A program made the translations under genes and the position numbers. Shown here piece after piece: positions 9,282-32,026 of a stretch of 37,431 nucleotides of DNA. The notes beneath the pieces were generated by a model, which was given only the letters and a program-made list of their open reading frames with translations, had not been told where the DNA came from and searched no databases. The stretch is from IMG/VR virus record IMGVR_UViG_3300009285_002914, positions 1 to 37,431 of that record. One strand, given 5' to 3'. Each line of letters opens with the position of its first letter. Position 1 is the stretch's first letter. This DNA is from a virus.

Positions 9282-11045
9282 TCATGCAAACACTCCGGAG
9301 CGCTCGAGGCGCGAGATCTCGTTGGCGATGTCGCGGGCGGACCGCATCGAGTCGGCGCGCTGATAACCGCGCCCGCTCGGGTTAACCGTGATCGCGAACG
9401 ATTTGCTGGTGGTCGTCGTTGCCGAGGGGACACGACCGGAGTCATGTCCCCGGCTCGATCCGTGAAAGAGCGGCCTCTGCGCCACGTGCGCATAGAGCGA
9501 GTCGTAATCGGCGCGCATCTGAGCGATGCCGGAGGAAAAGAGCGCGACGGCCGACGGCGAATGCGAGGCGAAGGGATTGAGCCAGGACCAGAGGTCCTCG
9601 GCCTTCTCGATGAGCACGCCTGCGGTCCGGTCCCAGAGCCCCTCGATCCAGGAGCAGAAATCGGTCCACCAGGCGCGAATCTGGAGGATCGCCGTATCCC
9701 ATGCGCGCGCAAGCTTGTCGGGTCCGTACACGATGTATTCGATCGCCTTTGCAGAGACATCGACAAGCCAGGTATAGGTTTCTCCGGTTTTCTTCAGCCA
9801 CCATATAACTCCTTCTATGATGGCCTGCAGGTTACTCATCTCGGCGCTCGCGTCGCCGGTGCCGGTAATGAAAGATGCGATGAACGGGATAAGATCTGCG
9901 ACGCCATCCGCGACGGTTTGCAGCATAGTCGTGAGCTGGTCGGATTCGGTGCTCCATGTAACCACCTGATCGATGATGGGCATAAGCTGCTCGCCGAGTT
10001 GGATGAGGATCGGGATGAGCGCGTCGCCGATGTTTTGCATGACGACCGTAAACTTCGCCTTGAGCTGCTCCCACATAAAGCCAAGCTTATTGACGCCGTT
10101 CGCCTGCTCGTTAAACGCCTCGTCGGTCGCACCGGCCGCCTGCTGCATCGCTGCGAGCTTCTGATTGAATACCTCAGCCTGGCCTCCGGTGAGCGCGAAT
10201 ACAGCGGTCAGGGCCTCGGCGCTGCCAAAGAGCTTGCCGACAGCTTCCTCTGAGCCGTCGGTGCTCGCCATCACCTGACGCATCGCTTCGGCCATGCCGA
10301 GCTGTTTCACCATCGAGGCGGCGCTCTCGTAGCCGAGCTTTTCGACGGCAATCATCATTGCCTCAGTCGGCTGGATCATGGCTCGCAGAACGGCCGAATA
10401 TTGCGTCGAAACTTCGGCGGCCCCGCCGGTGACTCCGGTCAGCGTCGCGAACGTGGCGAATAGTTCCTCTTGCGATACCTTGAGCTGAGACGCGAGCGGA
10501 ACGACCTTTCCGATCGAGGCTGCGAGCTCCGGGAACGTGGTTTGTCCGAGCTTGACGGTGGTGAATGCGAGATCGGACGCTTTCTGCGCAGCCTCGGCCG
10601 AGGTGTCGCCGTATCCCTTCGTCACGGCCGAGAGCAGGTTGATGGCATCGGTCGTGGTCGCCACGCCCGCGGTAGCGCCTTTAGCGGCGGTCTCTAAGAT
10701 CTTGGCTGAGTCGGCCGTATCGCCGAAAGCGGAGACCACCTGGTAGAGCCCTTCGGCGAGGTCCTCTGTCGATTTGCCGGTCTCGATGGAGAGATCCTGC
10801 ACCTCATGCTTCAGCTCTTCGACGCGCTCGGTCGCATTCGGAATCAGCGTCGCGACGTTCGCCATCGAGGCGTTGAGATCGGTCGCCATGATAACGGCGG
10901 CCGTGCCGACGCCGGCAAGCACCCCCGCAAAAGCGGCGCCGTATTTCGCGACGCTCTTCAGCCCCGAAATCGTTTTATCAATTCCGGCGCTCACCTGGTC
11001 GATATATTTACCGGTGATCCGGATGACTACCGATTCTTCGGCCAC
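9282..11045 (-). CDS. tail tape measure protein (TP901 type)
   Basis: 587 aa from a GTG start with GGAGG 5 bases upstream. The N-terminal two thirds is the TP901 tape-measure core (helical, Ala-rich, with LIPNATERVEELKHEVQDLS and GVTGGAAEVSTQYSAVLRAM motifs). Hydrophobic helices follow around residues 345-400. At the usual 0.15 nm per residue it would set a tail of under 100 nm. The C-terminal region contains an in-frame palindromic element (9426-9451) encoding RGHDSGRVPS. Overlaps the frameshifted chaperone extension by 19 bases. Confidence 0.92.
   Translation of the reverse strand: MAEESVVIRITGKYIDQVSAGIDKTISGLKSVAKYGAAFAGVLAGVGTAAVIMATDLNASMANVATLIPNATERVEELKHEVQDLSIETGKSTEDLAEGLYQVVSAFGDTADSAKILETAAKGATAGVATTTDAINLLSAVTKGYGDTSAEAAQKASDLAFTTVKLGQTTFPELAASIGKVVPLASQLKVSQEELFATFATLTGVTGGAAEVSTQYSAVLRAMIQPTEAMMIAVEKLGYESAASMVKQLGMAEAMRQVMASTDGSEEAVGKLFGSAEALTAVFALTGGQAEVFNQKLAAMQQAAGATDEAFNEQANGVNKLGFMWEQLKAKFTVVMQNIGDALIPILIQLGEQLMPIIDQVVTWSTESDQLTTMLQTVADGVADLIPFIASFITGTGDASAEMSNLQAIIEGVIWWLKKTGETYTWLVDVSAKAIEYIVYGPDKLARAWDTAILQIRAWWTDFCSWIEGLWDRTAGVLIEKAEDLWSWLNPFASHSPSAVALFSSGIAQMRADYDSLYAHVAQRPLFHGSSRGHDSGRVPSATTTTSKSFAITVNPSGRGYQRADSMRSARDIANEISRLERSGVFA
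9426..9451. repeat. 26-bp palindromic element, copy 1 (in tape measure)
   Basis: Arms GGGGACACGA and TCATGTCCCC. Lies in the gene in the opposite orientation to most coding copies and is read as GHDSGRVP. Confidence 0.85.
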
Positions 11046-11326
11046 ATTGCCTCCATGCGTTTCCTCTCATCGTGAGCTGCGATGATCGTCATGAGGTCGA
11101 TCTCCTCGAGGGAATAGAGTTGCGCGAGATGAGGCGCCAGCCGGATCCGCGCGATACCCTGTCGCAATCGATCGACCACAAACGCGTATTCACGCGGGAA
11201 CCGATCGAAGGTGCCGGCGTGCGGGCATCGGTCGCAGTTCTGGCAGGCTGCATCGCTCTCTCCCTTTTCGCATTCCGCGAGCCGGTCCTTATAAGGCGGA
11301 TCGAGCTCGAGGAATTCGACTAAAAA
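11027..11326 (-). CDS. -1 frameshift extension of the tail assembly chaperone (gpGT-like)
   Basis: The -1 frame is open for about 98 codons from the slippery site to a TAG at 11027-11029, and overlaps the tape-measure start. It has no start codon of its own at the 5' end. The product has a Cys cluster (AECEKG, ACQNCDRCPHAG) that could bind metal, followed by a helical tail. By analogy with lambda gpG/gpGT, a minority of ribosomes would make the fused protein, which coats the tape measure during tail assembly. Confidence 0.75.
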   Translation of the reverse strand, partial: FLVEFLELDPPYKDRLAECEKGESDAACQNCDRCPHAGTFDRFPREYAFVVDRLRQGIARIRLAPHLAQLYSLEEIDLMTIIAAHDERKRMEAMWPKNR

Positions 11327-11691
11327 TTTTCCGGCTCTTCTCCGCCCGCGATTTCACAGTTGGTCGGCAGGAACGCAGTGACCACGGAAAGCTTCCAGTC
11401 GCGCGGGATCCGCTGCTTCCAATCGGTATGGACAGCCGGATCGAGTCTGACGACGTTTTTATTCTCGTCGCGAAAATAGACGTTCTCGCAGCCGACCAGG
11501 TGGCGATTCACGAATGCGACGTCGACGTCGTAATCGTTGAAGAGCTTGTTGCCGCGCAGTCGCAGGCGCTTGCGGCGGAATTTGTCCTTCTCTTCGTCGG
11601 TCGGCGTCTCAAAAATAAACGTCACCTCGTCGCCGTCGGGCGCGGTGAAAATAACCGTGAGCCTGTCGGATTTTTCTGGTATGAGCGCCAT
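11320..11691 (-). CDS. tail assembly chaperone (gpG-like)
   Basis: 123 aa (MALIPEKSDRLTVIFTAPD...). Located between tail tube and tape measure, where siphophages carry the G/GT pair. It ends GAA AAT TTT TAG, which contains the slippery heptamer A AAT TTT (11323-11329) immediately before the stop. Moving back one base at that heptamer gives AAA TTT TTA and a long open frame. The assignment rests on position and the frameshift more than on sequence. Confidence 0.8.
   Translation of the reverse strand: MALIPEKSDRLTVIFTAPDGDEVTFIFETPTDEEKDKFRRKRLRLRGNKLFNDYDVDVAFVNRHLVGCENVYFRDENKNVVRLDPAVHTDWKQRIPRDWKLSVVTAFLPTNCEIAGGEEPENF
11323..11329 (-). promoter_or_regulatory. programmed -1 ribosomal frameshift site
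   Basis: AAATTTT in the X XXY YYZ register relative to the chaperone frame, next to the TAG stop. I did not find a compelling downstream pseudoknot by eye. Confidence 0.7.
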
Positions 11692-11717
11692 ATGCTCTTT
11701 TTTCCTTTCTCTCGCCG

Positions 11718-12788: not shown

Positions 12789-12988
12789 TCGGTATCACCT
12801 CCGCCCTGGGGACTGTCCCCGGAATTACGGAGCCCTCGTTTTTTAGGGCTCGTAGATTCGCATTGCTCGAACAGGTCGGGCCACTTCTGCCAGTAGCGGT
12901 CGTTTTCCAGGACGGCGCCCTTTTTCCATTTGCCCTTGAGGCGGCCATTGAACACCGTCGCCTCGGGTACGATAACTCTCGATGCCAT
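12785..12988 (-). CDS. small tail-module protein with repeat-encoded C-terminus
   Basis: 67 aa. Strong AAGGAGG site before the ATG. Residues 1-45 look like an ordinary compact protein (MASRVIVPEATVFNG...). The last 20 residues (TSPKKRGLRNSGDSPQGGG...) are encoded by a dispersed hairpin repeat (12808-12860). No family recognised. Confidence 0.65.
   Translation of the reverse strand: MASRVIVPEATVFNGRLKGKWKKGAVLENDRYWQKWPDLFEQCESTSPKKRGLRNSGDSPQGGGDTE
12808..12860. repeat. GGGGACTGTCCCC hairpin repeat, copy 1
   Basis: GGGGACTGTCCCCGGAATTA, CGG, stem AGCCCT, loop, stem AGGGCT, CGTAGATTCG. The stem differs from the other copies but remains self-complementary. Confidence 0.75.
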
Positions 12989-12997
12989 AATCCCTCC

Positions 12998-13507: not shown

Positions 13508-13546
13508 GGACTTTGGACTTTGGACCTTGGACCTTGGACCTTGGAA
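13508..13546. repeat. TTGGAC-type iterated repeat
   Basis: GGACTTTGGACTTTGGACC and further units fill the whole gap between two connector genes and abut the start codon at 13507. Confidence 0.75.
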
Positions 13547-14035: not shown

Positions 14036-14050
14036 AAGAACTTCTCCGGG

Positions 14051-14687: not shown

Positions 14688-14697
14688 AAGATTTCCT

Positions 14698-14974: not shown

Positions 14975-15000
14975 GGGGACACGAAGAGAATCGTGTCCCC
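14975..15000. repeat. 26-bp palindromic element, copy 2 (intergenic)
   Basis: Arms GGGGACACGA and TCGTGTCCCC. Same subtype as the 31795 copy in the transposase. Confidence 0.8.
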
Positions 15001-15012
15001 ACTATTTCCGCG

Positions 15013-16668
15013 TTAACTGCCGTAGCCTGCGAATGAAGCAGATCCGATCTGAGAGCTGACAGCAGAGCCGCCGGTACCGGGAACGGTGCATCCGACATAG
15101 TAGCCGGTTTCGGCCGAATCGGTGACCTCGAGAATGTACTGGCCGTCGGTATCGGTCATAACCTTGAAGCACTTTTTCGCAACATCCACATTCAGGTCGG
15201 TTCCCGACGCGCCCGCCTCCACCGTCCCCGACGCCTCGGTCCCGGTTAGTCCGGTCCCGTCCGCCGCATCGGAGAGCCAGACGGTGAGGATGAACGGCTC
15301 GGTGACATAGACGCTGCCCGCCGCGTCCACTACTCGTAGCGTGACATTGCATACGTCCGACGCGCCGACGGCGCTCGAGAAGAAGATGCCGAGGCCGGCA
15401 TTGTCGAATTTGTTGATTTCGGCTGCCGTGACGGTCGAGTCGTCGCAGAGCCGGTCGATCTCGGTGTCGGTCGCATCGATCGCGGCCAGCTTCGTGAAAT
15501 CGGCCGCTTCGAGGCCCGCAACATCATCGAGCAGATTGATCTCGGCTGCGCTTACCGTCGAGTCGTCACAGAGCCGGTCGATCTCGGTGTCGGTCGCATC
15601 GATCGCGGCGAGCTTCGTGAAATCGGCCGCTTCGAGGCCCGCAACATCATCGAGCAGATTGATCTCGGCTGCACTGACCGTCGAGTCGTCACAGAGCCGG
15701 TCGATCTCGGTGTCGGTCGCGTCGATTGCGGCGAGCTTCGTGAAGTCGCCCTGCACGAGACCAGACACGTTATCGAGCAGATTCAGCTCGGCGTAATTCG
15801 CGGTGAGCCCGTCGAGATAATTGAGCTCGGTCTCGTTGACGGTGAGACCGATCATGCCTGGCGGAATGAACCACAGCACGCGAATGACCTCATCGCTCGC
15901 GCTCGTGATGCACGGCTCGAGCGCGATCGCGCACGGCGCCTGGTTATCCTCGTCGAGGTAGCCGGAGCCGGCGGGCGATAGGATGTCGCCGGGCAAGATG
16001 TCGGCGCCGCGAACGGCGGCATAGCCGACGAAACCGCGCGTTGCGATTTCGCCCTCAGAGTTGTCGGCGATCGTCTCGGTCGCGTACCCGAGGCAGGCGG
16101 TCGTATCCGACGTGGCCGCCTTGAATCCGTTGCAGGGGTAGGCATAGACCGTCGCGCTGGCAGCCGACAGATTGGCCAGGTCGACGTCGGTGATGGTCTT
16201 CCAGAACATCGTCGATTTCTCGACGATGCCGGTCGCCTCGAACGTGATGGTTTCGGTCTGCGTCGCGCCGTTCTGGTCGGTGCCGGTGATCGTGCCGGTC
16301 AACTCGGAGCCTGCGTTCGCATCGATCGCAACGAACAGATAATGCGGGCCGCCCTCGCTCGAGAGCGATTCCGCAATCGTCATATCGTCGGCGCCCGTCG
16401 CCGAGGCGACGACCTCGAGAGAGGTGCCGTCGACAAGGACCGGGTCGCCGTTGCCGACGGACGATCCGGATTTGTTTCTCCACGTGGTGTGATTCTGCAT
16501 GAGCGCGATGCGCGCGGCAAGATCGCCCGGGGCGGTCATGCCGGCCTCGTGAATATCGAGGCCGCCCTCATCAAAGAGGGTCCACGCGCGCGCGCCTGCG
16601 GTGCCGAACGCGATGAGCGCGCATAGGCACACAAACACGAGCACGCCGATTACGAGTCGCTTAGACAT
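15013..16668 (-). CDS. secreted repeat-containing virion-like protein
   Basis: 551 aa. Starts with a classic Sec signal (MSKRLVIGVLVFVCLCALIA..., GARA before WT) preceded by a GGAGG site. The centre has ELNYLDG/AELNLLD motifs typical of phage fibre and head-decoration repeats. These are followed by three near-identical 41-residue units (AAIDATDTEIDRLCDDS...). The C-terminus is an Ig-like beta domain. It lies between major capsid and connector genes, a position for a decoration protein or head fibre, yet the signal peptide predicts export. Each repeat unit carries one Cys. Confidence 0.75.
   Translation of the reverse strand: MSKRLVIGVLVFVCLCALIAFGTAGARAWTLFDEGGLDIHEAGMTAPGDLAARIALMQNHTTWRNKSGSSVGNGDPVLVDGTSLEVVASATGADDMTIAESLSSEGGPHYLFVAIDANAGSELTGTITGTDQNGATQTETITFEATGIVEKSTMFWKTITDVDLANLSAASATVYAYPCNGFKAATSDTTACLGYATETIADNSEGEIATRGFVGYAAVRGADILPGDILSPAGSGYLDEDNQAPCAIALEPCITSASDEVIRVLWFIPPGMIGLTVNETELNYLDGLTANYAELNLLDNVSGLVQGDFTKLAAIDATDTEIDRLCDDSTVSAAEINLLDDVAGLEAADFTKLAAIDATDTEIDRLCDDSTVSAAEINLLDDVAGLEAADFTKLAAIDATDTEIDRLCDDSTVTAAEINKFDNAGLGIFFSSAVGASDVCNVTLRVVDAAGSVYVTEPFILTVWLSDAADGTGLTGTEASGTVEAGASGTDLNVDVAKKCFKVMTDTDGQYILEVTDSAETGYYVGCTVPGTGGSAVSSQIGSASFAGYGS
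15420..15785. repeat. three tandem 123-bp repeats inside the secreted protein gene
   Basis: Near-identical 123-bp units, each encoding 41 residues. Differences are mostly single bases, so the expansion looks recent or is homogenised. Confidence 0.85.
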
Positions 16669-18995: not shown

Positions 18996-21298
18996 TCGCC
19001 CGACCACAGTTCGTCGGGCAGCTCGTACTCGCCGTCCTTGCCGATCGAGGGCCAGGTGTCGCACTCGCAATTGATCGACTCCTCGGGCCCGAGACCCGGA
19101 TCGCCCGGCCCGTCGGCGTAGTACGAGCCGACGCGGAATTTCTCGCCCGCCGAAACGTTGATGGTCGCTCCGTCGAGCTCGATATGGTTCGGGCGCCCGT
19201 TCGGATTCCCACTGTGGCGCCACTCGTTGTAGCGCACGTCCGCCCGTTTGAACATCTCGCGCTGCGCGTTCTGAGCGATGTGATGTGTCTCCGTTTTCGC
19301 CGTCCGCTCGGCGCGCCAGGCGGTGTCGTAATTAAAGAGCCGCTGGATCTTGGCGACGAGCTCGGCATCGGTCGCCTGCTGGTACCGCCCGAAATATTCG
19401 TTGGTCAGCAACTCGAGCAGGCCGTCATACGTCTCGTCGGTCGCATGCGCGAGCCAGAACGCGCGCCGATCCGCGAGCTGCTTGAGGATGTTGTCGTCAA
19501 CCAGGACGAATTCTTTTTTCTCTGACCGGTCCGACAGGGCGGCCTTGTCGGACGCATCGGACAGGTCGGACAGGTCCGACATCTTCAGCGCCTTGGCCGC
19601 AGCTCGCAGTTTACGGGCGCCGAATTTTGCGCCCTTCTCGTAGACGCTTTTATACGGATCCGCGAAATCGGCCTCGAGGCGGCGACTGCTCGCGATCTCT
19701 TTGGGATCGAACCCGGAGAACAGCGCGCGCACGATTGCGCGATCGCGGTTCGCGTCGCGCAGGGGACTGTCCCCGGAATTACGGACCGCGTCTTTTGCGG
19801 TCGTAGATTCGGGACTGTCCCCATGTCCAGCTCCGCCCCCGGATTTCACCGGCTCGGTCGATTGCGCGTACGCGCGCAGGCGCGAGAGGCGCCCATCCGA
19901 TTTGAGCCAGCGCACCATCTCGGCGGCGAGATCGCCGAACAGCGCTTTCGCCGGACGATAAATCGCCGGCATCTGCCGCGTCACGTCGTAATGGCCGATG
20001 CTCTTGGACCTTGGACCTTGGACCTTGGCCCCTGGCCCTTGGACCTTGGACCTTGGACTTGGCAACGCAAGCTGCCCCGGGATGCCCGGCGATGCCGGCT
20101 CCGGCGGCTGATCGCCCCACTCGACCGGCGGCAGATTATCGGCTGCTCGCAGCTCATTGATCGTCCTCAGGCCCGACCGCACCAGGATATTCTCGCGCGT
20201 CGCCTTCTGATTCTGGTCCTCTCGCAGCGCCTCGACGTTCGATAGGTCGAACTCGACGTAGAGGCTCGAATCATTGAAATGCGGGACGAAGCCTTGATTG
20301 AGCGCTTCCTGGATTTTCACGAGCAGCGGCACGATCCGGTTTTTCCAGAACATGCTTTGCTGCTCTTTTGCGTTGGCATAATTCGCGTACTCGAATATGC
20401 CTACGATCGCGGGCGGCACGCGGAACACGGCGCAGATTTCCTCGCGATTCATTTTGCGGAGCTCGACGAACGTCATATCCCGCATCGTCGGCTGCGTTGG
20501 TTTGTATTTCAGGCCCTCGGACAGGATCGCGATGCGATGAGAGCGCTGCCGGCCACTGTGGACTTCCTCCCATCGTTTGCGCGCGAGCTTGGCGGAGTCC
20601 TCATCGAGCGGCTGATCCGTCTCGAGAGCGCCTCCGGGAGTTGCATCATATTTAAAGAAACTTTCGTTATAGCTTTGCGCCCAGGTGTCGATCGTGACGA
20701 TGCGGCTGCCCGCCTGGTACGAGCCGATCCCGTAATGCTCGCCATGATTTTCGCTATCCGGATTCCAGTATTTCAGGAGGAACACGTCCTCACGATCGAG
20801 CGCAATCTCGCGACCGTTGACTTCATAGATGAATCCGCGAATGAATTCGACCTTGTCGGGCACGATCGTTACGCGCGCCGGATGCAGCGGATAGAGCGCG
20901 ATCGGTTTGCCGGCGCCGTTGCGCTCGATCTCCCAGTAGGATGTCCCGTAGAGCTCGAGCGAGCCGCACGTCCATTCCCAGAGATCCGTGCGCGTGAGAT
21001 ACGGATTCACATTCCAAAACAATTCCGAGATCGCTCCCTCGATCGGGCGGCTCTCGGAGCCGCGCTGGCGATACTCGCTGAGCGGTACGCTCGCGACGGC
21101 GGTCATGATCGCATTCACGCAGGCATACACCCACGAGACGTTGCGGTAGCCCTTCGCCGGATTGAGGAAATTAAACGGCTGCTCGATGCCGAGCTTCTCC
21201 TCGTAATCCTGCACGAGCAGCGGCAGCGTTTGCGATGATTTCTGACGCGGCGCCGAGCCCTCGAAATTGAGCTTAAACCGTCCGATCTCGATTTTCAC
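18992..21298 (-). CDS. portal protein fused to a Mu gpF/SPP1 gp7-like minor head domain
   Basis: 768 aa. Residues 1-400 are a phage portal (NVSWVYACVNAIMTAVASVPL, GNGAGKPIALYPLHP-like wing, FRVPPAIVGIFEYANYANAKEQQ). The C-terminal 150 residues are the minor head domain ending with the characteristic INCECDTWP. These are usually separate adjacent genes. The linker holds three unrelated repeat-derived segments at about 412-432, 491-513 and 572-591. The GTG start at 21298 is chosen because its G is the last base of the preceding stop (TAGTG) and GGGG lies 9 bases upstream. Confidence 0.88.
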   Translation of the reverse strand: MKIEIGRFKLNFEGSAPRQKSSQTLPLLVQDYEEKLGIEQPFNFLNPAKGYRNVSWVYACVNAIMTAVASVPLSEYRQRGSESRPIEGAISELFWNVNPYLTRTDLWEWTCGSLELYGTSYWEIERNGAGKPIALYPLHPARVTIVPDKVEFIRGFIYEVNGREIALDREDVFLLKYWNPDSENHGEHYGIGSYQAGSRIVTIDTWAQSYNESFFKYDATPGGALETDQPLDEDSAKLARKRWEEVHSGRQRSHRIAILSEGLKYKPTQPTMRDMTFVELRKMNREEICAVFRVPPAIVGIFEYANYANAKEQQSMFWKNRIVPLLVKIQEALNQGFVPHFNDSSLYVEFDLSNVEALREDQNQKATRENILVRSGLRTINELRAADNLPPVEWGDQPPEPASPGIPGQLALPSPRSKVQGPGAKVQGPRSKSIGHYDVTRQMPAIYRPAKALFGDLAAEMVRWLKSDGRLSRLRAYAQSTEPVKSGGGAGHGDSPESTTAKDAVRNSGDSPLRDANRDRAIVRALFSGFDPKEIASSRRLEADFADPYKSVYEKGAKFGARKLRAAAKALKMSDLSDLSDASDKAALSDRSEKKEFVLVDDNILKQLADRRAFWLAHATDETYDGLLELLTNEYFGRYQQATDAELVAKIQRLFNYDTAWRAERTAKTETHHIAQNAQREMFKRADVRYNEWRHSGNPNGRPNHIELDGATINVSAGEKFRVGSYYADGPGDPGLGPEESINCECDTWPSIGKDGEYELPDELWSGD
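19521..19580. repeat. TCCGAC-type repeat inside the portal gene
   Basis: Read in frame as KMSDLSDLSDASDK... in the linker before the gp7-like domain. Confidence 0.8.
19762..19822. repeat. GGGGACTGTCCCC hairpin repeat, copy 3 (in portal)
   Basis: Full-length copy: GGGGACTGTCCCC at one end, stem GACCGC/GCGGTC, and GGGACTGTCCCC at the other end. Read in frame as HGDSPESTTAKDAVRNSGDS. Confidence 0.85.
20002..20061. repeat. TTGGAC-type repeat inside the portal gene
   Basis: Read in frame as SKVQGPGAKVQGPRSKS at the portal/linker boundary. Confidence 0.85.
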
Positions 21299-21471
21299 TA
21301 TGCAATCCCCTGGGGACATGACTCCGGTCGTGTCCCCACCACTGCAGAAGGCCCTACGACCCGTTTATAAACGTTTATAAACGGGGTAATCCATTCAGCC
21401 CTGTATCCCAACACGGCAAAACCGGCCTGCGCGATCCTCGACGCTCTGATGTCACATTCAACGATTCCCAT
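21298..21471 (-). CDS. small protein between terminase and portal
   Basis: 57 aa (MGIVECDIRASRIAQAGFAVLGY... ending SCPQGIA). Coupled at both sides: its ATG overlaps the terminase stop (TAATG at 21469-21473), and its TAG overlaps the portal GTG (TAGTG). The C-terminus is encoded by a 26-bp palindromic element (GTRPESCP), and the middle by a perfect palindrome (21360-21385). No family recognised. The exact stop/start overlaps are the main evidence that it is translated. Confidence 0.55.
   Translation of the reverse strand: MGIVECDIRASRIAQAGFAVLGYRAEWITPFINVYKRVVGPSAVVGTRPESCPQGIA
21312..21337. repeat. 26-bp palindromic element, copy 3
   Basis: Arms GGGGACATGA and TCGTGTCCCC; read in the 57-aa gene as GTRPESCP. 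Its last bases lie 14 bases before the portal GTG. Confidence 0.85.
21360..21385. repeat. perfect 26-bp AT-rich palindrome
   Basis: CCCGTTTATAAAC followed by its exact reverse complement, made of two GTTTATAAAC units. Not a copy of the other repeat families in the window. Confidence 0.8.
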
Positions 21472-23288
21472 TAATACACCATCGGGCCGGAGCCCTTACC
21501 GGTTGAAATCGCGAGATCGAGCGCGTCGAACAGGTCGTCGTGCTCGGCGCCCGGAAACGCGAGCAACTCGTTAACGAGTGCATCGAGCCCCTTCAGGAAA
21601 ATGATCTGGCCGTTCTCGAATAACCCCGAGAGCTTCATCGCGCGGGTCACCTTGTCCTTGTGCGTCATGACCTGGCGCACGCGCACGCCGCTGTCGCGGG
21701 CCTCCTGCGCCATGACGGCCTGGTATGCGTTCGCCTCGATCGCGACGCGGATCGCGTCGAACTGTCGAAACTTCTGCGCGATGGTCGCCGTCTGTTGCCT
21801 GAATGAGAGACGCTGAGCGTAGGCGTCGAGGACATACCACTCTTTTTTTCTGACGTCCTGGGCAACCGTCACATGCGCGAAATAGTCGCTCGTCTCCCTC
21901 GTTCCAATTGCCAGGTCGACGCCCTGGAAGATGCGCAGGGTTTCCAGCGGCGGTATCTCGACTCTCGTTATGAACCGCATCCAGTGGTACTTGAAGATCG
22001 AGCCCTTCATCGCGTCGGTATCGTTCTGATACTGCGCATTGAAGATTATCGAGCCGAGATCGGCGCGGATTTTGCGTAAGCGCGCAATGGAAAACAGGCC
22101 AGGCCAGGCCGAAACTTCGCGTCCGGATTTATTTTCGATCGCGCGCAGCACAAGCGTGGAATCGACGATCGCGTCGGCTATCAACGTATGATACATATCG
22201 GAGAAATGATAGCGTGTACCGACGAATTCCTCGCGGCCCTCAGGCATCAGGCACGGCCGGAATTTGGTCTTGTATTTCTTCACGAGGCGCTCTTGCTGGT
22301 ACTGAGTCCGCGCGTTCTCCTCGGAGACCGGATCGTCGTAGAGCATCACGTCAAAATGACGGCCGACGACGGCTCGATCGAAGCCCCACGCCTCGATGGT
22401 GCCCTCGCGAAATATGCGCTTGCGCTGCGCTATCGTGATCAGCGCCTCCGTCCATTTGGTTTTGCCGTCGTAAAATTTGCCGAACAACCAGATGAGATCC
22501 TCGTTCGTCATCAATATATTGATGATTTCATAAAGAAACGCGCGCGCCTGGTGCGCCGTTTCTGAGATGATCGCGACCCTGATGTCGTGATCCTTGAGAA
22601 CGAAATGGATCGCTCGCGTGACAGTGAGTATGGTTGATTTGCCAAAGCCCCGCGGCGCCAGCGTCAGCGGCCTCTTTGCCGTTGCGACGTGAACGAGCAT
22701 TTTCTTGTGGATTCGCGCCACCTGGAAGCCCAGGAGCCGCGCCACATTCTCCGGCGCTTCGAGCACCCACTCGCGCAGGTACCCGCGCCAGAACTCCTCC
22801 ATGATCGAGGGCGCCGGCTCTTCCTCCTCCGTAGCGCAGGCATCCTGCCTGCTCAGTTGCTCCATCCGTTTCTGATAATCGATCCGGTGCATCAGATCGA
22901 GGCGCTCGCGCTCCGAGGCGCGGAGCTGATGCGTCAGACGCGAGTGCTGCTCGACCGTATTTTTCTTGTCCTTCATGCGCGCTTGCAGCAGCCCGATCAA
23001 CTCGTCGTAATCGGCGAGCGTCTTATCCGCGTTTTCCATATAGCGCCTGAGATCTCCGTCCAAGAGTTTCTTGTCCGAGCGCGTGCGCCTCTTGCGCGGG
23101 CGGACCGCGACGGTCAACTCGTAGACCCGCTTCTTCGAGATCCCGAATTTCTTCGCGAGACGCTCGGCGCAGCGGGCGGCGGCGGAATCCTCGAGCCCGC
23201 TCATCTGCGCGACGATGTAGCTCCGATCGTTCGGATGCAAATTGCGGCACGACTTTGGACCTTGGACTTTGGACTTTGGACTCTTCAT
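21471..23288 (-). CDS. terminase large subunit with N-terminal helix-turn-helix region
   Basis: 605 aa. Walker A LAPRGFGKST (about 210-219), Walker B FDVMLYDD (312-319), and RNase H-like nuclease acids: D458 in GVDLAIG, E519 in AIEAN, D584/D585/D588 in HDDLFDALDLA. Residues 20-150 hold a small-terminase-like helix-turn-helix (AERLAKKFGISKKRVYELTV) and coiled coil. No separate small-terminase gene lies nearby, so the two subunits may be fused. Start is coupled to the previous stop (TAATG). The N-terminus (SPKSKVQGPKS) and a SRQDACAT segment are repeat-encoded. Confidence 0.92.
   Translation of the reverse strand: MKSPKSKVQGPKSCRNLHPNDRSYIVAQMSGLEDSAAARCAERLAKKFGISKKRVYELTVAVRPRKRRTRSDKKLLDGDLRRYMENADKTLADYDELIGLLQARMKDKKNTVEQHSRLTHQLRASERERLDLMHRIDYQKRMEQLSRQDACATEEEEPAPSIMEEFWRGYLREWVLEAPENVARLLGFQVARIHKKMLVHVATAKRPLTLAPRGFGKSTILTVTRAIHFVLKDHDIRVAIISETAHQARAFLYEIINILMTNEDLIWLFGKFYDGKTKWTEALITIAQRKRIFREGTIEAWGFDRAVVGRHFDVMLYDDPVSEENARTQYQQERLVKKYKTKFRPCLMPEGREEFVGTRYHFSDMYHTLIADAIVDSTLVLRAIENKSGREVSAWPGLFSIARLRKIRADLGSIIFNAQYQNDTDAMKGSIFKYHWMRFITRVEIPPLETLRIFQGVDLAIGTRETSDYFAHVTVAQDVRKKEWYVLDAYAQRLSFRQQTATIAQKFRQFDAIRVAIEANAYQAVMAQEARDSGVRVRQVMTHKDKVTRAMKLSGLFENGQIIFLKGLDALVNELLAFPGAEHDDLFDALDLAISTGKGSGPMVY
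22831..22852. repeat. CAGGCATCCTGCCTG mini-palindrome in terminase
   Basis: GTAGCGCAGGCATCCTGCCT: stem CAGGCA/TGCCTG. Read in frame as SRQDACAT between the N-terminal and ATPase domains. Confidence 0.65.
23251..23284. repeat. TTGGAC-type repeat at the terminase N-terminus
   Basis: Encodes residues 2-13 of the terminase in frame (SPKSKVQGPKS). Confidence 0.8.
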
Positions 23289-24152: not shown

Positions 24153-24691
24153 TCGACAACCTTCAGCAGTCGCTTTCTCCCCGGATACGGCAGCCCGACG
24201 TGGATGTACGATTTGTCCTCGTCCTGGCGCAGCGTCAATTTCAGCTCGATCCACGCGTGCGGCAATTCGTCGCGCATGAAGTTAAACACCTTGCGGAGCA
24301 ACTCGTTTTGTTTGCACTTGCTGAGGCCTCCGAAGTCCCGCGCCTCGCGGGATCCGACATGTCCGACTGGTCCGACAATAAAATCACAGAACCCGCCCAC
24401 CATATGCCCGCTCGTCTTCGAGCCCTTGACCGCCCGATTGAGTTCGGGACTGCGGATGCCCGACGTGATGAACAGCCCGATCTCCGGCTTTCCCATCAAT
24501 TGATTCAGGTGCGCGCGCGCGGGCTCGAGGATCGTTGCGCACAACAGGTACGCGCGTGTCACCTGGACGGGCGACGGCTGCAGCGCGTCCGCGAGCGCCG
24601 GATACTGCGCCGACACCAGGAACTCGCCGATATCGAAATGGTCCGTGAGCTGCATGTTGCGATCGAGTTGTGTCATGGGATTTTTAACCAC
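24149..24691 (-). CDS. endolysin, M15-type peptidase
   Basis: 180 aa. Zinc peptidase M15 pattern: SGIRSPELNRAVKGSKTSGHMVGGFCDF gives His96 and Asp103, and SYIHVGLP gives His164. M15 endolysins cut the peptide cross-links of peptidoglycan. A 42-bp repeat shared with the DUF3102 gene is inserted in frame between the ligands (about residues 107-126, VGSREARDFGGLSK). GTG start is uncertain; MTQLDRN (residue 6) is an alternative, and a TCCGTG-type repeat occupies the upstream region. Confidence 0.85.
   Translation of the reverse strand: MVKNPMTQLDRNMQLTDHFDIGEFLVSAQYPALADALQPSPVQVTRAYLLCATILEPARAHLNQLMGKPEIGLFITSGIRSPELNRAVKGSKTSGHMVGGFCDFIVGPVGHVGSREARDFGGLSKCKQNELLRKVFNFMRDELPHAWIELKLTLRQDEDKSYIHVGLPYPGRKRLLKVVE
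24317..24375. repeat. 42-bp repeat plus TCCGAC units in the endolysin
   Basis: 24317-24358 matches 32237-32278 at 41 of 42 bases, including a CCCGCG/CGCGGG hairpin, and runs on into TCCGAC units. Confidence 0.85.
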
Positions 24692-25065: not shown

Positions 25066-25150
25066 CCGTAAAAACCAAAAGGCCCGACGCGAGCAGCTTT
25101 TATCGGGGACATGACTCCGGTCGTGTCCCCGGTACTGCTCGCGCCGGGCC
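25066..25150 (-). terminator. intrinsic terminator ahead of the late genes, with a palindromic element in its loop
   Basis: On the - strand, GGCCCGGCGCGAGCAG pairs with CTGCTCGCGTCGGGCC (15 of 16 bases) and is followed by TTTTGGTTTTT. A 26-bp palindromic element (25105-25130) sits in the loop and can form its own hairpin. It lies about 40-120 nt downstream of a strong promoter and upstream of the lysis and virion genes. Confidence 0.8.
25105..25130. repeat. 26-bp palindromic element, copy 4 (terminator loop)
   Basis: Arms GGGGACATGA and TCGTGTCCCC, flanked by the two arms of the terminator stem. Confidence 0.85.
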
Positions 25151-25306: not shown

Positions 25307-25504
25307 TCAGCTCGATGCCCGCCCGGTCGCGCTGGTGTTCAGATGGATTCCGTATTTCTCCATTTTCTCCGCGACGAGAGGATCGCTGAGCACGTGGCCG
25401 GTCTCCTCCGGCCGGATATGCTGCAGCACTCCCTGATCGAAACACAGCACAATCCGCCCCGAGAACCCCATGCGTTTGAGCTGCGCGTCATCTATCTCGA
25501 TCAT
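25307..25504 (-). CDS. small protein upstream of the late promoter
   Basis: 65 aa (MIEIDDAQLKRMGFSGRIV...), start coupled to the gemA-like stop (ATGA). The centre (GRIVLCFDQGVLQHIRPEE) resembles the short DUF2292-type beta hairpin proteins only loosely. Last gene of the early operon, the place where a late regulator would be expected; no antiterminator motif is visible. Confidence 0.55.
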   Translation of the reverse strand: MIEIDDAQLKRMGFSGRIVLCFDQGVLQHIRPEETGHVLSDPLVAEKMEKYGIHLNTSATGRASS

Positions 25505-26169
25505 TTGCGCGCCTTGTCCGACGCGTCCGACGCGTCCGACTTGTCCGACATCTCTTTCTTCTTCAGCCAGCCCAGCCGATTCCTCAACTGCACAATCAGC
25601 CGGCTGGCCTCCTCCTCCATCAACATCGAGACGGCGACCGCCTCTTTTTTTGTCAGCATCGCCGCCCATCCATCGAGGCGCGGACCGGGTTTTGCTTGCC
25701 ACATCGGCGGCAGATCCATCTCGCCCATCTCGGCGAGGCTCTTCTCATACGAGATGATGTCGTACATCAGCGAGTACGCGTAGCGGATCGAGTCCTGCCG
25801 CACCGTCGGCGCGACGTGGATATGCGTGATCCCGCGCGGATCCGTATACCGCCGCCGCCGCTCGCGAGCGGGGACATGACTCCGGTCGTGTCCCCGCGGA
25901 TCCCGGCAGCCCAGATGCTCGAGCAATCTCCGCGCATCATCGGTCGTGAAATCCTTCAGGCTCGCTTTCCCCGTCGCGGCATACTGCACCTCATGCCGCA
26001 ACTCGTCGTCGATCCCTCGCTCCTTGAGTGCCGCGAAGATGCGCTTGCGCAACGCATCCGACAGCGGCCGTCCATTCCGTCCGTGTCTGTCCGTGTTCGT
26101 CCGACGACTCATATCAATTTTCGATGGATTTTTTCTTTGTGTCTTTGTGCCTTGGTGGTTGCTTTTCAT
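25501..26169 (-). CDS. gemA: GemA-like (DUF1018) regulatory protein
   Basis: 222 aa from the ATG at 26169, which overlaps the preceding stop (ATGA). Contains the GemA/Mu gp16 pattern: SDALRKRIFAALKERGIDDELRHEVQYAATGKASLKDFTTDDARRLLEHLG. The C-terminal half is helical (MWQAKPGPRLDGWAAMLTKKEAVAVSMLMEEEA). Three repeat types lie inside: the N-terminal KSNHQGTKTQRKNP, an in-frame 26-bp palindrome read as RGHDRSHVP (25870-25895), and TCCGAC units encoding MSDKSDASDASDK at the end. In Mu, gemA affects host gene expression and supercoiling. Confidence 0.8.
   Translation of the reverse strand: MKSNHQGTKTQRKNPSKIDMSRRTNTDRHGRNGRPLSDALRKRIFAALKERGIDDELRHEVQYAATGKASLKDFTTDDARRLLEHLGCRDPRGHDRSHVPARERRRRYTDPRGITHIHVAPTVRQDSIRYAYSLMYDIISYEKSLAEMGEMDLPPMWQAKPGPRLDGWAAMLTKKEAVAVSMLMEEEASRLIVQLRNRLGWLKKKEMSDKSDASDASDKARK
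25513..25551. repeat. TCCGAC-type repeat in gemA
   Basis: Four GTCCGAC units with CGC or TT spacers, read as SDKSDASDASDK. Confidence 0.8.
25870..25895. repeat. 26-bp palindromic element, copy 5 (in gemA)
   Basis: Arms GGGGACATGA and TCGTGTCCCC, read as GHDRSHVP just after the conserved GemA domain. Confidence 0.85.
26082..26166. repeat. TCCGTG variant and CACAAAG-type repeats at the gemA N-terminus
   Basis: 26082-26104 holds GTCCGTGTCTGTCCGTG; 26136-26166 holds TTTGTGTCTTTGTGCCTTGG. Both are translated in gemA. Confidence 0.7.
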
Positions 26170-26420
26170 AAAATCTTTTCCCTTAGATTTATGATTTTCG
26201 CCTTCAGCGCCTGCAATCCCTGCATATACTCCCGCCGCTTTCCCTCGTCGATCGAATCGAACACGCGCACGGTCATCTCGCGGAGGCCCTCCGAGATCTC
26301 GCGCAGATCCACCAGGACCGCCCGCTGCCACGGCGCCCGCCCTTCCCTCGCAACCTCTTTCTCCCATTCCGCGTCAGCTTTCGCGCGCCTGGCGCGCTTC
26401 CGGTCATCGAATTTAGTCAT
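26166..26420 (-). CDS. small helical early protein
   Basis: 84 aa, very rich in charged residues (MTKFDDRKRARRAKADAEWEKEV...), predicted nearly all helical. Its stop overlaps the gemA start. No family recognised. Confidence 0.65.
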   Translation of the reverse strand: MTKFDDRKRARRAKADAEWEKEVAREGRAPWQRAVLVDLREISEGLREMTVRVFDSIDEGKRREYMQGLQALKAKIINLREKIL

Positions 26421-26584: not shown

Positions 26585-26636
26585 CTCACCCACACCTCAG
26601 GCGCGGCCCATGCGCCCCTGAAAACTCCGTCGGCGC

Positions 26637-27182: not shown

Positions 27183-27200
27183 CTAACAGACCTCCTTTTT

Positions 27201-27290
27201 TTCTGCGTTAATCTGTGAAATCTGCGGATTATCGGGCACGGCATGCCGTGCCCCTACATCCGTGAAAATCCGTGTTAATCCGTGGTTAAA
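27201..27290. repeat. three repeat families back to back
   Basis: CTGCGTTAATCTG-type (27201-27233), GGGCACGGC-palindrome copy 3 (27234-27259), and TCCGTG-type (27258-27290) fill the gap and the last codons of the 159-aa gene. Confidence 0.8.
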
Positions 27291-27754
27291 ATCTCTTTCG
27301 CTTTCCGGATCTCCCTGGCGAACGTCGCGCACAGATGCAGCATCGTCTGCCCGCAGGCCTCCGGCTCGAGTGCCCGAAGCGTCGACGCCAAAATGCCGAA
27401 TGCCTCGCTCTCGCGCTCGACCGCATCCACCTGCACGAGCGGACCGTTTGCGCCCCACGTCGGCGGCTCGTCCTTCCCCGACTTCGCCGCCAGCCCGCCC
27501 TTGCGCCGCTTGAATTCGCCGGACCCGGACAATGGGGACATGACTCCCGTCGTGTCCCCATTATCAGCACGCGCCGTTCCCCCCTTTGACAAAGGGGGAC
27601 TAAGGGGGATTTTCCGCTTCATGCGGTGGCGCGCATATTTCTCCAGCTCGCCCGCCCGCATCGCCACTTGATAACACGCCTTGCACAGGTCGCGCCCCTG
27701 TATCTCGACGCCCGCCCGCTTGCATTTCACGCACGTCCCGATCTTCCGCGCCAT
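27275..27754 (-). CDS. Cys-rich putative zinc-binding early protein
   Basis: 159 aa. N-terminal zinc-ribbon pattern CVKCKRAG...CKACYQ (residues 8-26). The middle is repeat-encoded: KRKIPLSPPLSKGG from a CCCCCTTT-type repeat and NGDTTGVMSP from a 26-bp palindrome. The C-terminal helical part (GPLVQVDAVERESEAFGILASTLRALEPEACGQTMLHLCATFAREI) looks like an independent domain. DNA- or RNA-binding is possible; function unknown. Confidence 0.65.
   Translation of the reverse strand: MARKIGTCVKCKRAGVEIQGRDLCKACYQVAMRAGELEKYARHRMKRKIPLSPPLSKGGTARADNGDTTGVMSPLSGSGEFKRRKGGLAAKSGKDEPPTWGANGPLVQVDAVERESEAFGILASTLRALEPEACGQTMLHLCATFAREIRKAKEILTTD
27534..27559. repeat. 26-bp palindromic element, copy 6
   Basis: Arms GGGGACATGA and TCGTGTCCCC, read here in a third frame as GDTTGVMSP. 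Confidence 0.85.
27578..27613. repeat. CCCCCTTTGACAAAGGGGG repeat
   Basis: Perfect inverted repeat CCCCCTTTG/CAAAGGGGG followed by ACTAAGGGGGATTTTCC, read in frame as KIPLSPPLSKGG. Confidence 0.75.
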
Positions 27755-27763
27755 ATCCCCCCC

Positions 27764-28171: not shown

Positions 28172-28173
28172 GC

Positions 28174-28428
28174 TCAGTTCTCCGAATACCGTGTCGGCCA
28201 AATCCTATTAATGATCGCGGCGATGACGAGGAGCTGCTCGTCCGTTTTCGCCGCCGGCAGAAACCGGTGCCACTCCACGAGCTGCCGCCGACCCGCAAGC
28301 TGCACATCCACCATCGACGGCCAACTCACCAAGTGCGCTTCCAGGTGTATCTCGAGCTTCGGATCGTCCATTCTTTCTCTCCCTGTCCGACCTGTCCGAC
28401 CCGTCCGACAGGTCCGACTCTCCTTCAT
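28174..28428 (-). CDS. small early protein downstream of MuB
   Basis: 84 aa if it starts at the ATG overlapping the MuB stop (ATGA at 28425-28428). Residues 3-19 (SRTCRTGRTGRTGRER) are translated TCCGAC repeat, and the second ATG (MDDPKLEIHLEAHL) would give 65 aa. No family recognised. Confidence 0.55.
   Translation of the reverse strand: MKESRTCRTGRTGRTGRERMDDPKLEIHLEAHLVSWPSMVDVQLAGRRQLVEWHRFLPAAKTDEQLLVIAAIINRIWPTRYSEN
28384..28419. repeat. TCCGAC-type repeat
   Basis: Four GTCCGAC units just inside the start of the 84-aa gene. Confidence 0.8.
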
Positions 28429-29621
28429 GCTATTTGCCTCGCGTTGTTTTCGCCGCCGCCGAGTGTCGCGCTCAGGCTCTTGTCCCGACTCTCGACTCGC
28501 GTCGGAGCGTATCGAGCGTCGACCGGCGTAAAAAATTCCTCGACCATCTCGCGAGGGACCGCCCGCAGCCCGCGCTCGTACGCGCGCGTGCACATCCAAC
28601 TCATCAGCGCCGACAGCGGCAGCGCGTAATCGAGGTGGCGCTCCGTCATCAACTCGCACAGACGCGCGAGCGCCGGCGGCGTGATCACCTGCGACGGCGC
28701 CGCGCCGGCAACGCGGAGGCGCTGCTCGATGTAATTCTTCGATTCCGCCGCCAGCCCGTGCAGATAGATGCGGTGCGCGCGCCAGCCGGCGGCGCGGATC
28801 GCATTCAGCCGGTGCGTCAGTTCGGGCGCCTGGCCCACCAGCAGGATCCCGAGCAGCCGCCGGTAGCCGTGCTCTTTCTCGGAGAAAATCTTGAGTTGCG
28901 CGAACATGCGCGGCGTGATCCATTGCGCGTCGTCGACGATCACGCAGACGACGCGGCCCTCCTCGCGCACATTGGCGAGCATGCTCCAAAAACCGCTCGA
29001 GCGCCGCTGCCGGCCGCCGAGAATCTCCTCGGCATCGAGCGCCTCGAGTACGGCATCGCGAACGGCACTCGTCCCGATATCCCGCTTCTCCTCGACCGAG
29101 ACCTCGGCGAGCACGACGTGCGGCAGCTCCTTCGCGATGCGCTCGCGCAGATGCTGCACGAGCGTCGATTTCCCCCAGCCCACCTGCCCGATGACCGCGC
29201 TGAATGCGACGCGGTCGATCTTCTCGATCACGTCCTCGGCGACCACGCGAAATTCTTTCGAGATATACGGCTCGTTCTTTTCGTAGAATGAATCGAACTC
29301 CATGCCGAAATGTTTCAGGCATTTCCTGCTGAGAAACTGCCGTTGGATGCGTTCTTCGTCCCGTTTCATTCTCTCGTCATCCCTCCAGTATTTACCCTCA
29401 CCCGCGGATTCCATTGTGATGCCGCGCTCGTTGCACAGCGCGATGACGCGCTCGCAAAAATGCGGCAGCGACGGCGGCTCGTAACCCTCGCTGAAAAAGC
29501 GGGACACCAGGCTCTTCGAGCAGCCGAGCGCGGCGCACACATCCCGATACGACAGCCCCGCCTGCTGCAGCTTGATCCGCAGCAGTTCATGTGCCGGATT
29601 GTGCCGACTGATTCGATTCAT
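28425..29621 (-). CDS. MuB-type transposition target ATPase
   Basis: 398 aa. N-terminal helix-turn-helix (residues 14-42, YRDVCAALGCSKSLVSRFF), then an AAA+ ATPase with Walker A GQVGWGKST (145-153) and Walker B VCVIVDDAQ (225-233). MuB proteins coat target DNA, choose insertion sites, give transposition immunity and activate the transposase. Longer than Mu B (312 aa). Coupled at both ends by ATGA overlaps. Confidence 0.9.
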   Translation of the reverse strand: MNRISRHNPAHELLRIKLQQAGLSYRDVCAALGCSKSLVSRFFSEGYEPPSLPHFCERVIALCNERGITMESAGEGKYWRDDERMKRDEERIQRQFLSRKCLKHFGMEFDSFYEKNEPYISKEFRVVAEDVIEKIDRVAFSAVIGQVGWGKSTLVQHLRERIAKELPHVVLAEVSVEEKRDIGTSAVRDAVLEALDAEEILGGRQRRSSGFWSMLANVREEGRVVCVIVDDAQWITPRMFAQLKIFSEKEHGYRRLLGILLVGQAPELTHRLNAIRAAGWRAHRIYLHGLAAESKNYIEQRLRVAGAAPSQVITPPALARLCELMTERHLDYALPLSALMSWMCTRAYERGLRAVPREMVEEFFTPVDARYAPTRVESRDKSLSATLGGGENNARQIA

Positions 29622-29914
29622 TCACCCCTCCCCTGGCCCGTCTTCGCGCTCTTGTTCGCACCATTTTTCGCCGGAACGCTCTCTCCCAAATAGCAGGGCT
29701 TCTTCTCCTTGCAGGCATAGTAACAGTCGAACGTCAACTGCAACCGCGACGAGCCCACCTGCACCGCACGAACCGTCAACGCATTCTCGAGCTTTTTCCT
29801 GCAGAGGAAGCACTGATGTCCGCCGCATGCCTCGATGTCCATGTGTCGGCAGTTCGCGAAAATCGCGATCTGTGTTTTCACCTCGACGTGCGTCGTCAGT
29901 TCATGCAGCAGCAT
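29618..29914 (-). CDS. Cys-rich putative metal-binding protein
   Basis: 98 aa. CGGHQCFLCRKK (two Cys pairs) and CYYACKEKKPC suggest a zinc-binding fold. Start overlaps the previous stop (TAATG) and stop overlaps the MuB start (ATGA), so it is translated with the transposition genes. Function unknown. Confidence 0.7.
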   Translation of the reverse strand: MLLHELTTHVEVKTQIAIFANCRHMDIEACGGHQCFLCRKKLENALTVRAVQVGSSRLQLTFDCYYACKEKKPCYLGESVPAKNGANKSAKTGQGRGE

Positions 29915-30249
29915 TACCGTTTCCCCCCGCGCCCTTTCTTCTTCTCAATCGTCCCGCGCTTCCGCGCGTACTCCATGTAATGCAGTACGCGCTCCTGTTT
30001 GTCGGCGATCCATCTATCGAGACCGTCTCCGTCCCATTCCTCCAAAACGCCGCGTTCAGTCAGCATGCGAGCCACTGCGTTCAACTCGGCCAACTCGTGC
30101 CTAATGATGTCGCGATTTCTATCTGCGAAAGTGAGAGCGTGCTTCGGATCGCGATCGTTCAGCCCAAACCGCAACGCCGTGCATATCGCGTGCTGAACCT
30201 CCGCACATTCCTCGATCAGGCATTGCAGCAGCCATTCGGTTTCAGTCAC
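29914..30249 (-). CDS. MazG-like nucleotide pyrophosphohydrolase
   Basis: 111 aa from the GTG at 30249, preceded by AAGGGGAAA. All-alpha NTP-pyrophosphatase pattern: LIEECAEVQHAICTALRFG (EExxE) and IRHELAELNAVARML (ExxE), which hold the Mg ions. Could remove modified or excess nucleotides or act in anti-defence; the context does not say. The open frame extends upstream through repeat sequence (FWILDFGFWIL) that is unlikely to be translated. Confidence 0.72.
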   Translation of the reverse strand: MTETEWLLQCLIEECAEVQHAICTALRFGLNDRDPKHALTFADRNRDIIRHELAELNAVARMLTERGVLEEWDGDGLDRWIADKQERVLHYMEYARKRGTIEKKKGRGGKR

Positions 30250-30271
30250 TTTCCCCTTGCCCCCTTCCAAT

Positions 30272-30346
30272 ACCAAAATCCAAAATCCAAAATCTAAAAT
30301 CCAAAATGAAATTTCATCCGTGAAAATCCGTGTTAATCCGTGGTTG
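30272..30346. repeat. CAAAATC-type and TCCGTG-type repeats
   Basis: CCAAAATCCAAAATCC units (30272-30308), then three TCCGTG units (30315-30346) that encode the last residues of the transposase. Confidence 0.8.
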
Positions 30347-32026
30347 CTTTCCCGTTGATTGCAGCCGCTGGATCGCCGCATCGATTTCCTCCGCCGTCAT
30401 CCAGTCGCCGTACTCATGCGTGAGCGCCTCGCTCTCCTCGACCGTTATCACGCGCCCGAGCGCCTCGTGAATCCGCGCGAGCGCCCGGTAGATGCTCATG
30501 CGCACCGGCGCCCCCGGCCCAGCCTGGATCTCCTCGCCCGCACGCGACATAAACGACAGATTCCCGATGCCCTCGGCGAACCCCCGGAATGCGTCCAGCC
30601 CGTCAACAACCGGATTGCGTTCGGCATGTTTCTGCGAGCGCTCGGTCGTCGTATCCTTGAACGAGCGGAAATCACCGGTGGCGACCGCATGCTCGTAGTA
30701 GCCGCCCTCGAGCGCGTCCATCTTTGCCAGCGGTTTCGCCAGATAATAGCCGCCATCGATCCCGCGCACGCGCACCTCGGGGAACGTCCACGGCGAGTAC
30801 ATCACCTCGGCGTCCGTCTCGCGAAGATCGACCGGAATATTTTCGAGCAGATACCGCCGCCCCTTGAACCGGATCGTGAGATCGCCATAGATGTGGCATG
30901 TCGCCGGTTTCTCGGCGAGCGCCATGAATGCGGCCAGGTCGGCCGGCGGAATGCGCAGCTCGTCACTGCGAATCGTCGACCAGAGTTGCGAGCGCGTCAT
31001 CCCGTAACGACGGTGGATCTGCTGGCCGTTCCACTGGACGCACCACTCGTACGCGCGCGCGTTCAATTCTTCTAATGATTCCGGTTTCTCAACGCGCATC
31101 CGCGTCTCGAAATGCGACTCGACGATCCAGTGCGCGCACTCGACACTGCCGAGCGCCGACGGATGCCCGAGCTTCCCCGCCCTCGAGCGCGTGCCCGTCG
31201 GCTGTTTACCAACGAGTTCGACGCCCAAATTCTCACAGAGTTGTTGGATGTGGCCGCTGTGATATGTCGCGCCCTGGTCGACATACAACCGCGTCGGACA
31301 GCCGCACAACGGAAACTTCTCCGGCTCGCGCTTGCGCGTCCAGGCCGCATGCAAATGCGCGGCCGACGAGATGAACGACTCGTGCCGATGCTGGTACTGC
31401 ACAAACGTGCAGTGAGTGAAATGGTCGGTCAACACGTAGCGGATCACCTGCCGCCCGCGCGCCGGCTTGTTCTGGTCCTTGCCCGCCTGCGGATTCACGC
31501 GGAGGCGGGCCTGCGATCCGCGTTCGTCCAGATACCATATCGAGCAGACCGACGTGTCGAACTGATGCTCCTCGTTCGGCCTCGTCGACCGCCGGCACAT
31601 GCGCGGCGCCGGCTTCGCGAGCGCGCGCCGATCGAGTTGCCGCGCGCGCAAGAGCTGATTGATGTGGTGGGGCTTGACTCCGTTCGACGAGGCGCCGGTC
31701 ACGTCGGCCGCCACCTCTGCCGGCATTGGATTGTTGTATTTGCCCGTTGTCGATTGGTGTTTGAGGAGCGCCGCCCGTTCCACGTCCGCAACCCGGGGAC
31801 ACGATTCCCTCCGTGTCCCCATATCCGCCCGCTGTTTCCGGCCGCTCGCCCAGCCGCCGGCGCGCGCCCACCGATAGATCTGAGCAGCCGACACCCCATA
31901 CACCCCCGCCCACCGTTCCACCACCTCGCCGCGGGGACATGACTCCGGTCGTGTCCCCGCGGCGGCCTGCTCCAGCTCGCGCGCGATCTCCTCAAGCTGC
32001 GCCTCTGTCAGCTCGCGCTTCGTCAA
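30314..32026 (-). CDS. MuA-type D,D,E transposase
   Basis: 570 aa. N-terminal helix-turn-helix (about 33-60, VVERWAGVYGVSAAQIYRWARAGG), then the integrase-fold core with Asp157 (HQFDTSV), Asp250 (LYVDQGAT) and Glu296 (ALGSVECAHW), and a C-terminal beta/helical region. MuA is 663 aa, so this one is compact. The TTG start at 32026 is chosen because it overlaps the previous stop (TTGA) and has GAGGG 7 bases upstream. Two 26-bp palindromes bracket the helix-turn-helix, read as GTRPESCPR and GTRRESCPR. The C-terminal QPRINTDFHG is repeat-encoded. Confidence 0.9.
   Translation of the reverse strand: MTKRELTEAQLEEIARELEQAAAGTRPESCPRGEVVERWAGVYGVSAAQIYRWARAGGWASGRKQRADMGTRRESCPRVADVERAALLKHQSTTGKYNNPMPAEVAADVTGASSNGVKPHHINQLLRARQLDRRALAKPAPRMCRRSTRPNEEHQFDTSVCSIWYLDERGSQARLRVNPQAGKDQNKPARGRQVIRYVLTDHFTHCTFVQYQHRHESFISSAAHLHAAWTRKREPEKFPLCGCPTRLYVDQGATYHSGHIQQLCENLGVELVGKQPTGTRSRAGKLGHPSALGSVECAHWIVESHFETRMRVEKPESLEELNARAYEWCVQWNGQQIHRRYGMTRSQLWSTIRSDELRIPPADLAAFMALAEKPATCHIYGDLTIRFKGRRYLLENIPVDLRETDAEVMYSPWTFPEVRVRGIDGGYYLAKPLAKMDALEGGYYEHAVATGDFRSFKDTTTERSQKHAERNPVVDGLDAFRGFAEGIGNLSFMSRAGEEIQAGPGAPVRMSIYRALARIHEALGRVITVEESEALTHEYGDWMTAEEIDAAIQRLQSTGKQPRINTDFHG
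31795..31820. repeat. 26-bp palindromic element, copy 7 (in transposase)
   Basis: Arms GGGGACACGA and TCGTG-containing end CCGTGTCCCC; the centre matches the 14975 copy rather than the majority type. Confidence 0.85.
31933..31958. repeat. 26-bp palindromic element, copy 8 (in transposase)
   Basis: Majority-type copy; flanks GCGG/CCGC extend the palindrome. Confidence 0.85.

Follow-up and report, generated by a model that had tools for sequence, protein, structure and literature searches.

The 37,431-nt IMG/VR record IMGVR_UViG_3300009285_002914, analysed here over its whole length and called the window, carries a transposable, Mu-like phage, recognised in profile searches by its MuA, MuB, GemA, portal, TerL and tape measure proteins. 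Dispersed within it are eight copies of a 26-bp palindrome, GGGGACAYGA-N6-TCRTGTCCCC, most of them inside open reading frames (ORFs). The palindrome is not phage-specific: the same family recurs in bacterial chromosomes, where some copies likewise lie within genes. It is probably a non-autonomous hairpin of the GGGGAC/TIRYT type, akin to the repetitive extragenic palindromes (REPs), acquired from a host, with a Y1 HUH transposase acting in trans to move it.

All eight copies listed by a first-pass annotation of this DNA are found where it placed them, seven exact and the one at 31795 with a single mismatch; 100 dinucleotide shuffles of the window yield 0 copies. The copies are:

9426..9451, in the minus-strand tape-measure gene near its C-terminus; read as GHDSGRVP; orientation opposite to most copies
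14975..15000, intergenic; core GAAGAGAATC
21312..21337, making up the tail GTRPESCPQGIA at the C-terminus of a 57-aa ORF, directly upstream of the likely portal start
25105..25130, intergenic
25870..25895, in a linker of gemA; read as GHDRSHVP; the stretch matching the phrog_286 profile stops just ahead, at residue 155
27534..27559, in a 159-aa ORF; read as GDTTGVMSP; a CCCCCTTTGACAAAGGGGG repeat lies close by
31795..31820, in MuA, with one mismatch; read as GTRRESCP; net +3 residues against most homologues
31933..31958, in MuA; read as GTRPESCP; net +6 residues against 12 of 12 homologues; the flanks lengthen the dyad by 6 bp

Two copies (14975 and 25105) are intergenic and the other six lie wholly within minus-strand ORFs, where all three frames are used: GTRPESCP/GTRRESCP, GHDRSHVP/GHDSGRVP and GDTTGVMSP. 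The ORFs concerned, all on the minus strand, are:

9282..11045, tape-measure gene, one copy; phrog_991/PF10145
21298..21471, 57-aa ORF, one copy at its 3' end
25501..26112, gemA with revised start, one copy; PF06252 GemA, E 5.9e-06
27275..27754, 159-aa ORF, one copy
30314..32053, MuA-type transposase gene, two copies; phrog_310, E 3e-41

At least three of the six ORF copies sit in clear phage genes (MuA, GemA and tape measure by profile). The earlier description, of six copies inside genes in three frames with no frame broken, stands as far as intact ORFs and frames go; two of the genes lack independent support. The 159-aa ORF, the one of these two covered by the profile scans, has no family match in either of two scans, and both ORFs are recognised by position only. 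Within the 159-aa ORF the CCCCCTTTGACAAAGGGGG repeat at 27580-27598 is read as part of KIPLSPPLSKGG. The gemA gene very probably starts near 26112 rather than at 26367, because the alignment with GemA of phage Mu begins there and leaving off the upstream 85 codons improves the Pfam score. Its copy lies in a linker where the Mu and G004 proteins (G004 being a second transposable phage, described below) seem shorter, on a weak alignment; a tblastn search among phages gave no match to GemA, and no solved structure matches it convincingly. The annotation had also placed the coding copies between domains, which fits gemA. The tape-measure copy is in the C-terminal part, past the core conserved in the best phage matches; the two MuA copies flank a conserved YRWARAGG segment in the N-terminal region; and that of the 57-aa ORF forms a tail immediately before the portal gene.

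In MuA, the peptides are insertions relative to homologues. The comparison covers 12 sequences: those of G004, Microcystis phage Mae-JY22 and Pseudomonas phage JBD25, and nine Syntrophales prophage-like genes. At the GTRPESCP site the window protein has exactly six extra residues, found in 0 of the 12; at the GTRRESCP site about three extra residues are missing from most. The peptides are thus not conserved; their conservation in distant homologues is what the annotation had named as fatal to its reading. Its expected length difference of 24, 27 or 30 bp did not materialise: the net gains are +18 and +9 bp in MuA, both multiples of three, and +21 bp in a bacterial LigA described below. The MuA values imply that the original sequence was partly replaced or was already element-like. 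Searches of IMG/VR with MuA and TerL returned no close relatives of the phage, so the phage genes offer no empty site at the DNA level.

The family extends to another phage and to bacteria, as a search of chromosomes proposed in the annotation was to show. Phage G004, a distantly related transposable phage from IMG/VR whose MuA is 30% identical, contains four copies, each of them between genes, in different places and with different cores. Other short repeats common to the two phages suggest related hosts; among them are dispersed AATCCGTGTTAATCCGTGG repeats, which in the window lie between genes and at gene ends (9243, 18963, 24706, 26504, 27267, 30325 and 33929). In a scan of 84,980 genomes, the 26-bp form has four copies in Syntrophaceae CG2_30_58_14, two in a Hainich relative and single copies in other genomes; some single matches (e.g. 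in Blautia, Prevotella, Collinsella and Sphaerisporangium) may reflect chance or hairpins of another kind and are given no weight. The main chromosomal form is a 27-bp sister, GGGGACAYGATGCNGCATCRTGTCCCC, with 43 copies in genome G003; its half-sites number tens in a Syntrophaceae subgroup (G001, G002, G003, G144, G145 and G147) and about 0-2 in most other genomes of Syntrophales. One Syntrophaceae contig (L221, G003:C13:1-16000) packs seven full 27-bp palindromes into ~14 kb. The MuA homologues encoded by 12 Syntrophales genomes all share just 27-34% identity with that of the phage, and Syntrophales are therefore not shown to be its host.

Chromosomal copies lie inside genes of replication and repair as well. 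In LigA a copy stands in frame between the helix-hairpin-helix and BRCT domains, read as GDMMPHRVP in three close genomes; the LigA of G058, 80% identical, lacks exactly seven residues (21 bp) and already has the VP codons with which the insert ends. A copy in a DnaG linker (GTRSGSCP) is present in two genomes and in none of the orthologues across Syntrophales. In RecJ a copy forms the C-terminus and is missing from G003 and G058. Other chromosomal copies are intergenic, for instance between atpA and atpG, genes recognised by sequence.

The ends of the palindrome point to a class of transposases. Genes for PF01797 (Y1) transposases of ~220-340 aa in G001, G003, G006 and other genomes have inverted flanks that start with GGGGAC and diverge afterwards. 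For the five genes scanned, the best-scoring model is the NCBIfam REP-associated tyrosine transposase (RAYT), at 58-72 bits, below the cut-off of 80. This is the arrangement published for TIRYT transposases and their TIRtrons (TnpA-Y1 subclass 2.1), which have the terminal inverted repeat (TIR) consensus GGGGWSAS (PMC3733652 and PMC6006769). The arm GGGGACAC matches this consensus; the partner arm, often GGGGACAT, misses the last S. The cores found at the ends of the transposase genes are GGTTCTA, GCTACCC, AATACC... and the like, never GGGGACAYGATGC or the phage core. In the draft genomes examined no such gene has the exact palindrome as its end, and the link is therefore one of type, with no cognate pair. 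A second palindrome of the GGGGAC type, GGGGACTGTCCCC, is also present in the window, at 12808-12820, 19762-19774 and 19811-19822, twice in the portal gene (one copy 1 base shorter) and once in a small ORF; two copies are followed by GGAATTACGGA. A TIRYT gene of G147 (L188) has a similar end, TTCCGGGGACAGT.

Hairpin shape and flanks were assessed on 112 distinct copies, homologous loci of related genomes being counted separately. An asymmetric stem position, T-G on one strand and C-A on the other, is found in 75 of the 112. Folding is more stable for the strand that has the T-G pair than for its complement (-10.2 vs -8.2 kcal/mol). Five of six asymmetric copies share one orientation, which is not a significant bias. 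In 14 of the 112 the flanks extend the dyad exactly by at least 6 bp (~0.03 expected), reaching 12 bp in Syntrophaceae; the separate counting of homologous loci inflates this figure, yet not to that degree. Direct target-site duplications, a classical trait of miniature inverted-repeat transposable elements, are not evident in the flanks, which are instead inverted and centred on the dyad. Either the element enters the centres of palindromes or the insertion process creates the inverted flanks; no empty site favours one over the other.

Repeats associated with RAYT and TIRYT transposases are a better comparison than the Rickettsia palindromic elements (RPEs) to which the annotation had likened the palindrome. 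With the TIRs of TIRYTs (PMC3733652 and PMC6006769) it shares the ends (GGGGACA[C] fits GGGGWSAS), which are also those of RAYT-family Y1 transposase genes in the Syntrophales genomes examined, and the dispersal of its copies: dispersed families and paired copies are described for the TIRs, and the 27-bp sister is dispersed in G003. Here, unlike in those descriptions as far as available, each unit of the family is one palindrome of 26-27 bp in which the two arms are joined; its copies lie in phage genes, and in the genomes examined no gene is flanked by the exact sequence. With the REPs and REPINs mobilised by RAYTs (PMC3116915 and PMC3733652) it has in common a hairpin of 20-40 bp, an asymmetric stem, tens of copies, and intragenic copies, some of them in replication and repair genes; for REPs, intragenic copies that favour such genes are already described (PMC3733652). 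It departs from them in that the GTAG/CGTC tag at the foot of the stem is missing from the flanks of all eight phage copies, and in its many in-frame copies in a virus. The small dispersed repeats of cyanobacteria treated by Elhai et al. in 2008 are reportedly very short and mobile, at ~20-30 nt like the palindrome, and are said to differ from it in sequence and hosts.

A mechanism along these lines would begin with a unit of 26-27 bp, a single hairpin whose GGGGAC ends are of the type that flanks the genes of TIRYTs, members of the RAYT family. The hairpin would form in single-stranded DNA and a Y1 transposase of the host would insert the element in trans, with a preference for sites that resemble GGGAC/GTCCC or lie at or close to the centre of an existing dyad. 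The phage would gain copies during residence or replication in a host with the family. Of the copies in genes, those that persist would be the ones in a linker or tail with a net change divisible by three, and the resulting short peptides in phage proteins would be neutral.

Several results weigh against this mechanism. At high DNA identity no exact empty site has been found, and the inserted unit and target rule are thus not fixed: of 18 G003 loci searched, 12 could be aligned with G001, G002, G058 and G147, none giving a clean high-identity empty site, and most of the 12 differ by nested repeats. A possible GTCCC target is suggested by one locus, LigA. In the element-rich genomes examined, which are drafts and may be incomplete, neither GGGGACAYGATGC nor the phage core borders any PF01797 gene, and PF01797 proteins are missing from both phage records. 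The main core of the phage copies, GACTCCGGTC, occurs in none of the 84,980 genomes scanned for palindromes with a 6-nt centre. The failure to find a cognate transposase gene would suit a spread that needs no transposase, by template switching, microhomology repair or gene conversion among short inverted repeats, with the GGGGAC arms as seeds. Template switching could produce long exact inverted flanks. Also in keeping with such a spread are partial copies in tandem (CGGGGACACGATGCGGCATCATGA units in G147, L254), copies that are nested, and a site that has the GATGC palindrome in G003 and a GGGACAGATTTCAAATTTGTCCCC palindrome in G001. Such a process nevertheless seems unlikely given isolated copies in unrelated genes with no common flanking sequence, Y1 transposase genes of several families that bear GGGGAC ends, and hairpins that are strand-asymmetric, as in REPs. 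The same genomes hold another palindrome family, GGGGACAGATTTNAAATCTGTCCCC (L236, L106 and L258 (G001:C76)), which replaces the GATGC palindrome at one site.

The density of copies in the phage, 8 in 37.4 kb or ~13 times that of G003, would also be expected of sites selected for a phage function (operator, packaging, transposition or terminator), and the intergenic copies could act as RNA hairpins. This has little probability, however: six copies lie in ORFs in three frames, G004 as a related phage has just four, elsewhere and with other cores, bacterial housekeeping genes carry the family too, and the window has no Rfam matches. True kinship with the RPEs, with selection for the inserted peptide, is more improbable still. 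The outcome is indeed alike, palindromic DNA carried in frame in linkers of unrelated protein genes and tolerated at non-critical sites, and to that extent (in-frame copies, several frames, linkers and tails) the claim of RPE-like behaviour in a transposable phage stands. Membership does not: RPEs measure ~150 bp and encode a conserved peptide according to a review (PMC10969869), whereas here the unit is 26-27 bp, every frame is used, the peptide varies with the frame and the arms fit TIRYT-type ends instead. Ordinary conserved protein segments with a coincidental likeness in DNA are refuted by the sharing of the DNA across frames and intergenic sites and by the absence of the peptide at the first MuA site from all homologues.

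REP-like repeats are regarded as chromosomal and mostly intergenic, and to our knowledge their movement has rarely been observed. The family described here spreads into viruses too, adding short peptides to their proteins. Phages turn over fast, and the in-frame copies are a datable, movable record: relatives with and without them could give the unit, the target and the rate. Among the 12 best-ranked of 133 papers that contain one of its arms, none deals with the palindrome as a repeat family. Tentatively, hairpin transposons of the GGGGAC/TIRYT type, reduced to 26-27 bp, may shuttle between chromosomes and transposable phages, with the phage as vehicle, insert at exact palindrome centres (hairpin tips) and repeatedly remodel proteins of both by the addition of linkers of 3-7 codons. 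A rule that targets hairpin tips can be tested directly on the dyad-centred sites. The copies within genes also show how phage proteins and bacterial replication and repair proteins (LigA, DnaG, RecJ) can acquire short linkers.

The window contains further repeats of other kinds. Tandem TTGGAC heptamers occur at 20004-20053, 23255-23269, 13513, 18078 and 275, in frame in the portal gene (KVQGPGAKVQGP) and at the annotated N-terminus of TerL, and also between genes. GTCCGAC nonamers are found at 24361, 25516, 28385 and 5325, in frame in gemA (SDKSDASDASDK) and in a 180-aa ORF. Three tandem units of 123 bp, 84-100% alike, occupy 15413-15781 in a 551-aa ORF, and a 63-bp repeat, 89% identical, is shared by two different ORFs (24314-24376 and 32234-32296).

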